Shown here piece by piece: positions 48,224 through 48,930 of a DNA stretch of 50,403 nt. Position 1 is the first letter of the stretch; every line of letters begins with the position of its first letter. The stretch is from Methanocellales archaeon (GTDB taxonomy: Archaea > Halobacteriota > UBA148 > JAUWXC01): the NCBI GenBank assembly GCA_030018435.1, contig JASEEY010000008.1, positions 1-50,403 of the forward strand. The letters run 5' to 3'. Under the pieces are notes generated by a model. It was not told the origin of the DNA. It saw only the letters and a program-made list of their open reading frames with translations, and made no database searches. The translations under genes were made by a program, and so were the position numbers.

Positions 48224-48490
48224 ATGGTAAATATAATGGTAAAAATGGCAATAAAAACTGCCGAAATTGGGGAAGATGGAAGGGTTGTAATACCCAAAAA
48301 TATCAGAGATGACCTTGGTGCTAAGAAGGGCGATACACTATTATTTGAGAATATTTCAAAGGGAGAATTGCGGGTCAGGGTAATAAGGGGCGAGGATCCT
48401 TTTCTTATGATTATCCGCAATCCAAAAAAAGGCAAGGCGATTAAGCCCTCTAAGCTGAAAGAAGAGCTCTGGTCAGGATGTTCTTTGTAG
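48224..48490 (+). CDS. AbrB/MazE-type antitoxin
   Basis: 88 residues with AEIGEDGRVVIPKNIRDDLGAKKGDTLLFENI, the swapped-hairpin AbrB DNA-binding fold, followed by a tail (KGKAIKPSKLKEELW) that would block the toxin. Starts at ATG 48224, 48236 or 48245 are possible; the first fits a leaderless message. The gene overlaps the PIN gene by 13 bp, as usual for VapB/VapC pairs. The antitoxin looks intact although its toxin gene is interrupted. Confidence 0.88.
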   Translation: MVNIMVKMAIKTAEIGEDGRVVIPKNIRDDLGAKKGDTLLFENISKGELRVRVIRGEDPFLMIIRNPKKGKAIKPSKLKEELWSGCSL

Positions 48491-48930
48491 ACTCCAACAT
48501 TTTCATGTTCGCCAGTGTTGAAATCCCGCAGGGATTACAACTCTCACAGATCTTCGATCTGTGACACGATGAAAACTATCCTGAACATATGAATGCGAAG
48601 AGTTTTTTTGAAGAAAAAAGAGAGAAATTCTGTTTTAATACCATCATCGCCCTCGAATCCCATTATGGATATCTAAGAAACTTGGGCGCAGAGGAGGCAG
48701 AAGTCAGGCTGAAGGCCATGCTAGGATCCAAGCTTCTCAAGTATTATGCCATAACCGAAGAAGATTTGATTAAGGGAGCAGAAATCTCCCGGAGATATGA
48801 CATAAAAACGAACGACGCTACAATAATTGCAAACATGCTGAGGAATGGCATTGACAGGATAGCTACAGACAACGTAAAGGATTTCAGCAAACATCCCAAG
48901 GTTAAGGTGATTAATCCCATCAAGCGGTAG
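48478..48930 (+). pseudogene. VapC-like PIN-domain toxin, interrupted by an in-frame 48-bp insertion with stop
   Basis: From ATG 48478 the frame reads MFFVDSNIFMFAS, then 16 codons of foreign sequence ending in TGA (48562-48564), then HDENYPEHMNAKSFFEEKREKF and the rest of a PIN domain. Acidic residues of the metal site are all kept: Asp5, the Glu in NTIIALESHYG, Asp in KTNDATIIA and Asp in RIATDNVKDF. Both flanks share one reading frame, so removing the insert restores an intact VapC-like protein of about 134 aa. Without that, the downstream ATG 48589 would give a PIN lacking the first Asp. Confidence 0.85.
48517..48564 (+). mobile_element. 48-bp double-hairpin insertion in the PIN gene
   Basis: The insert consists of hairpin 1 (48517-48541: 11-nt arms around GCA, one mismatch, starting GTTGAAATCCC), the bases TC, and hairpin 2 (48544-48564: perfect 9-bp arms TCACAGATC and GATCTGTGA around TTC). 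Its length is exactly 16 codons. Palindromic in-frame insertions recall the small palindromic elements of Rickettsia. Only one copy was found in the window, so mobility is inferred. Confidence 0.6.

Follow-up and report, generated by a model that had tools for sequence, protein, structure and literature searches.

A 51-nt two-hairpin element in an interrupted PIN toxin gene belongs to a dispersed archaeal family with many in-frame copies in protein genes

The window analyzed here is a 50,403-nucleotide stretch of DNA from a Methanocellales-like archaeal MAG with a genome of about 1.0 Mb. It carries a toxin–antitoxin module in which the toxin gene is interrupted by a short structured block. An earlier sequence-only reading had proposed a PIN toxin with an antitoxin upstream, and both assignments were confirmed by domain matches (PF01850 and a MazE-like PF04014). 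The features at the locus are as follows.

48224–48490, + strand: MazE/AbrB-type antitoxin gene (PF04014, E 8.1e-07), which overlaps the toxin start
48478–48930, + strand: PIN-domain toxin gene, interrupted (PF01850, E 2.8e-10, downstream part)
48509, + strand: T at −7, matching one half of the target preference
48516–48566, + strand: 51-nt two-hairpin element (TGTTG...GACA), very probably mobile; exact gap in three relatives; covariance-model match of 78.5 bits
48517–48541, + strand: hairpin 1, 25 nt, 10 bp with one conserved A.A mismatch and a 3-nt loop (folding; covariation across 33 copies)
48542–48543, + strand: linker TC between the hairpins (sequence, alignment)
48544–48564, + strand: hairpin 2, 21 nt, 9 bp, perfect, with a 3-nt loop (folding; covariation)
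48562–48564, + strand: in-frame TGA formed by the last bases of the right arm of hairpin 2 (translation)
48571–48573, + strand: GAA at +5 to +7, part of the preferred target and there already in empty sites
48589–48930, + strand: rest of the PIN open frame downstream, 113 aa, lacking the N-terminal MFFVDSNIFMFAS

The element splits codon 13 (Ser) of the PIN gene between its second and third bases. Uninterrupted alleles are found in three relatives, two from the same genus (G001 and, over the aligned part, G003) and one from another family (G004). All three lack exactly these 51 nt, and no base of the target is doubled. The sequence-only reading had described an exact in-frame insertion of 48 nt and suggested comparing uninterrupted orthologues, all three of which lack the block; the single reading frame common to both flanks stands, and the length had to be corrected because an outer T and CA had been missed. 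The same reading took the TGA at the end of hairpin 2 to be the only lesion, and translation agrees that it is the sole in-frame stop, the sense frame of this copy reading VEIPQGLQLSQIFDL and then the stop.

Folding reproduces the architecture first proposed, a 25-nt hairpin and a 21-nt hairpin separated by TC. The minimum free energy of the element as RNA is −22.4 kcal/mol (z = −5.8), with none of 200 shuffles as good, and the DNA fold is the same as the RNA fold. Across 33 distinct full-length copies, paired cells make up 98.1%, and compensatory changes on both sides are found in 12 of the 19 pairs, a level reached in none of 500 shuffles. Pairing is lost when partners are slid within this alignment. 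The length is exactly 51 nt in 34 of 36 independent copies. Inverted repeats at the ends extend for 3 bp only (TGT...ACA), and Rfam has no match at the element.

The source genome contains eight copies in total, seven in addition to the one in the PIN gene, at 81–96% identity. With a covariance model built from these eight, members were detected in 7 of 11 genomes from the class; G004, a complete 1.07-Mb relative, has about 30 copies. When an exact degenerate pattern was run over 84,980 species, one genome per species, it matched solely in Methanocellales/Methanosarcinales archaeon records (MAGs), with Rickettsiales outside the matches, in a set that may miss near relatives of the source. The suggestion that the block is a small palindromic mobile element reaching coding genes is thereby supported: the search of the genome and its relatives that was proposed for it uncovered a dispersed family, with seven more copies in the genome, dozens in relatives, empty sites, and many in-frame copies.

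Empty sites with a clean 51-nt difference were found for the PIN, CobQ-like, CCA (L107, in G002), Trm1 (L098, in G004), and ParA genes, orthologues being stretches taken around search matches. Elp3 and endonuclease dU also differ from their orthologues by 51 nt, with less certain junctions. For LeuRS and asparagine synthase (both against G006) and thymidylate kinase (against G002), the junction cannot be placed exactly because the orthologues are too diverged. The same insertion is also found in orthologues of independent assemblies, for the CobQ-like gene in G000 and G003 and for ParA in G000 and G002.

Some loci show additional arrangements. On contig 26 of G000 (L004 and L005, at 1501–1551), two copies share a longer imperfect inverted context (CCTTCCCTTCTGC...GAAGGAAGG), and one of them is close to a tRNA-Leu gene. 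G009 has several near-identical two-hairpin repeats (CACTCACATTTC...; L071–L074, L077). Most of these have the same NNNN-GAAAC-type flank after them, and one lies between two tRNA genes.

The insertion sites share sequence on both sides. (G/C)AA occurs at +5 to +7 in 21 of 36 independent copies, where 1.4 would be expected, and T occurs at −7 in 26 of them (9.7 expected). The preferred site, T at −7 ... | NNNN(G/C)AA, is dyad-like, with halves that mirror each other about the insertion point. The right-hand motif is also found in empty sites, indicating that insertion favors it. At its left end (TGTTGAA), the element itself contains the right-hand target half, and some copies are nested in or adjoin others. 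Nested or tandem elements were seen at L024, L046, L049, and L054, partly within genes (CarB, TiaS-like), and one sits between hairpins 1 and 2 of another.

It is possible, though doubtful, that the family is a non-autonomous relative of IS200/IS605 or REP/RAYT elements that a Y1 transposase mobilizes in single-stranded form, an origin compatible with the main explanation. The absence of target duplication and the placement of hairpins near both ends fit this idea, as does the resemblance of the bottom-strand end of the element (TTTCAACA) to the preferred flank (TTSNNNN). In IS605, the left and right cleavage sites resemble each other in such a manner. However, no Y1 transposase (PF01797) was found in G000, G002, G003, or G006, nor in G004 despite 97% completeness and its many copies. 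PF01797 matches do occur in G001 and G009, and the G001 element has ends unrelated to those of the family. The target preference is also dyad-like, as opposed to a one-sided tetranucleotide. The case for a Y1 transposase as the mobilizer is weakened by its absence from most copy-bearing genomes and by the unrelated ends of the G001 insertion sequence.

Open copies of the element lie in frame within a broad set of genes, conserved ones included. Frames run through the element in genes for a CobQ-like protein, the CCA-adding enzyme, and a ParA/MinD-type ATPase in G000; LeuRS, asparagine synthase, thymidylate kinase, endonuclease dU, MoaD/ThiS, a TiaS-like protein, and PolB in G004; CarB, Trm1, and a DUF362 protein in G006; Elp3 in G002; and RelE-like and PIN-like proteins in G001. 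Gene names beyond those matched by structure or domain were assigned by reading the sequence. When the CCA-adding enzyme is aligned with 1r89, a 17-residue gap falls no more than one residue from the element, and comparison of Elp3 with a solved structure gives a 22-residue gap with the element inside. In similar comparisons, the CarB element falls within an unaligned stretch, and the LeuRS alignment is loose around the element. In G000 (contig 24, L003 1017–1634), a frame change splits a gene that reads as nitroreductase-like, and the element is in frame in the C-terminal part of this gene.

The element is 17 codons when read through, and four of the six frames of its consensus are open. The sense frame 'VEIPxGLQLSQxFxLR' is used in PIN, ParA, Elp3, asparagine synthase, endonuclease dU, and MoaD, and another, 'LKSxRDYNS...', in thymidylate kinase. 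The antisense frame 'DRRSARVVIPxGFQ' is used in the CobQ-like, CCA, CarB, DUF362, and RelE-like genes, with 'CxSSxNCESC...' in LeuRS and Trm1. The TiaS-like gene uses a frame that is normally blocked by TGT TGA; the copy found there has TGT CGA, and the partner arm is changed to match. Among the in-gene copies examined, only the PIN copy has a stop within the element, at a position that is a sense codon in other copies read in the same frame. Because the in-gene copies are otherwise open, translation is the simplest reading, and we infer from these sequences that translation, not removal, is the fate of the inserted codons.

Removal from the message, by an archaeal bulge-helix-bulge intron or other splicing, would leave the host proteins unchanged, and it had been raised in the sequence-only reading. 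A structured block that is precisely inserted inside essential genes would suit such a process. A bulge-helix-bulge motif requires base pairing between the beginning of the intron and that of exon 2. In the element, the partner of GTTG is CAAC within hairpin 1, and by inspection of the sequences the flanks show no complementarity to it, on which ground bulge-helix-bulge splicing was rejected. The in-gene copies also keep frame and avoid stops, which would be needless for a spliced element. With the other in-gene copies open and no splice-type pairing with the flanks, removal is not needed as an explanation and is very improbable. Translational bypassing of the element is a shade less probable again: bypass inserts are similar in size and have hairpins, and in the PIN copy a stop falls inside the gap (see PMC5009743 for a review of bypassing), yet the clear in-gene copies, PIN aside, have lengths divisible by three and no stops, which bypass would not need. 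That the block is an artefact of assembly, or that a diverged PIN gene contains hairpins by chance, could be entertained for a window that, from its relatives' records, presumably comes from a metagenome-assembled genome. Such a reading is made negligible by the dispersed homologous copies, the strong covariation, and the insertions common to orthologues in independent assemblies, the last being a strong argument against an artefact.

The favored account of the PIN gene itself is recent loss of a dispensable toxin. The TGA likely silences the toxin, and we infer that the product is lost. Loss would be bearable given that the antitoxin is intact. Over the 113 downstream codons, this genome's branch has seven synonymous and no nonsynonymous changes, which suggests either that the interruption is recent or that some product is still made. 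A frame without signs of decay beyond the TGA fits a recent insertion and also residual use. Reading of the TGA as a selenocysteine codon was rejected, as no tRNA-Sec was found above the cutoff in the source genome. The PIN part (48589–48927, compared with L012 and L013) has 96% protein identity to G004, from a different family, and 94% to G001, from its own genus; this higher identity to the more distant genome may reflect transfer of the module.

It is highly likely that the block in the PIN gene is one copy of a 51-nt two-hairpin non-autonomous mobile family that is tolerated and translated in genes and that has truncated the toxin here. The element inserts without duplicating its target, at sites of loose dyad symmetry (T at −7, S-A-A at +5 to +7), essential genes included. 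It would then be transcribed and translated, adding a 17-residue peptide to the host protein; its length of 17 codons, together with four normally open frames out of six, would explain why it is tolerated. In the PIN variant, an A-T pair (A-U in RNA) in hairpin 2 makes the sense frame end in TGA, which would truncate the toxin.

A two-hairpin family of 45–48 nt is found in five of five genomes of another order in the same phylum (G016, G025, G034, G041, and G042), with up to dozens of matches per genome (e.g., L163, L148, L156, L025, and L026). Some copies sit in frame inside genes whose products resemble thymidylate kinase and other proteins, and one is located in a fumarase C-terminal domain. 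By analogy, this cousin behaves like the 51-nt family, a likeness of architecture and in-gene placement, descent apart. The chances are roughly even that minimal two-hairpin elements of 45–51 nt form a distinct archaeal class, with related members in two or more orders of one phylum, that uses an as yet undescribed enzyme to enter dyad-symmetric sites without duplicating them and repeatedly adds short peptides to essential proteins.

No description of the family in Archaea was found in the literature searched, which consisted of open-licence papers, and the 51-nt family appears to be undescribed in this domain. Several known systems share some of its attributes. The MITEs of archaea and bacteria (reviewed in PMC10969869) are also small, non-autonomous, dispersed, and sometimes fused in frame to genes; unlike them, the family shows no target duplication and has only 3-bp inverted ends, and the sequences examined yielded no partner transposon. 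REP elements with GTAG or CGTC tags (PMC3733652) are likewise short hairpins in many copies, whereas the archaeal elements have no such tag at their ends, no Y1/RAYT protein in most copy-bearing genomes, and a frequent location in genes. Translational bypass inserts (T4 gene 60 and the Magnusiomyces byps; PMC5009743) are about 50 nt, structured, and found in genes. The copies described here need no bypass, being in frame and open.

Closer parallels come from two other groups. The double-hairpin elements of Allomyces mitochondria (Paquin 2000; PMC2800124, PMC7218506) are mobile, consist of two hairpins, and lack flanking duplications; those within genes stay in transcripts, as the archaeal copies probably do. 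They are mitochondrial and, in those accounts, reported absent from structurally important gene parts, whereas many archaeal copies are in frame inside conserved enzymes. The Rickettsia palindromic elements (RPE; Ogata 2000, 2002) of Rickettsia and Wolbachia (PMC3767692, PMC10969869) are palindromic repeats dispersed in a small genome, with many copies in frame within unrelated protein genes and the frame preserved. As described there, they differ in being 100–150 bp rather than 51 nt, and the family reported here is archaeal and has two separate hairpins. The best analogy, drawn from these descriptions, would be RPE in behavior with the architecture of the Allomyces double hairpins. To our knowledge, protein-coding palindromes have been found mainly in Rickettsia and Wolbachia. 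The phenomenon would be more general if Archaea have a shorter family of this kind, one with exact empty sites, with a target preference that is conserved, and with copies tolerated in tRNA-related and metabolic enzymes. The family also offers a clean setting in which to study the movement of such elements and their effect on the proteins of small genomes.
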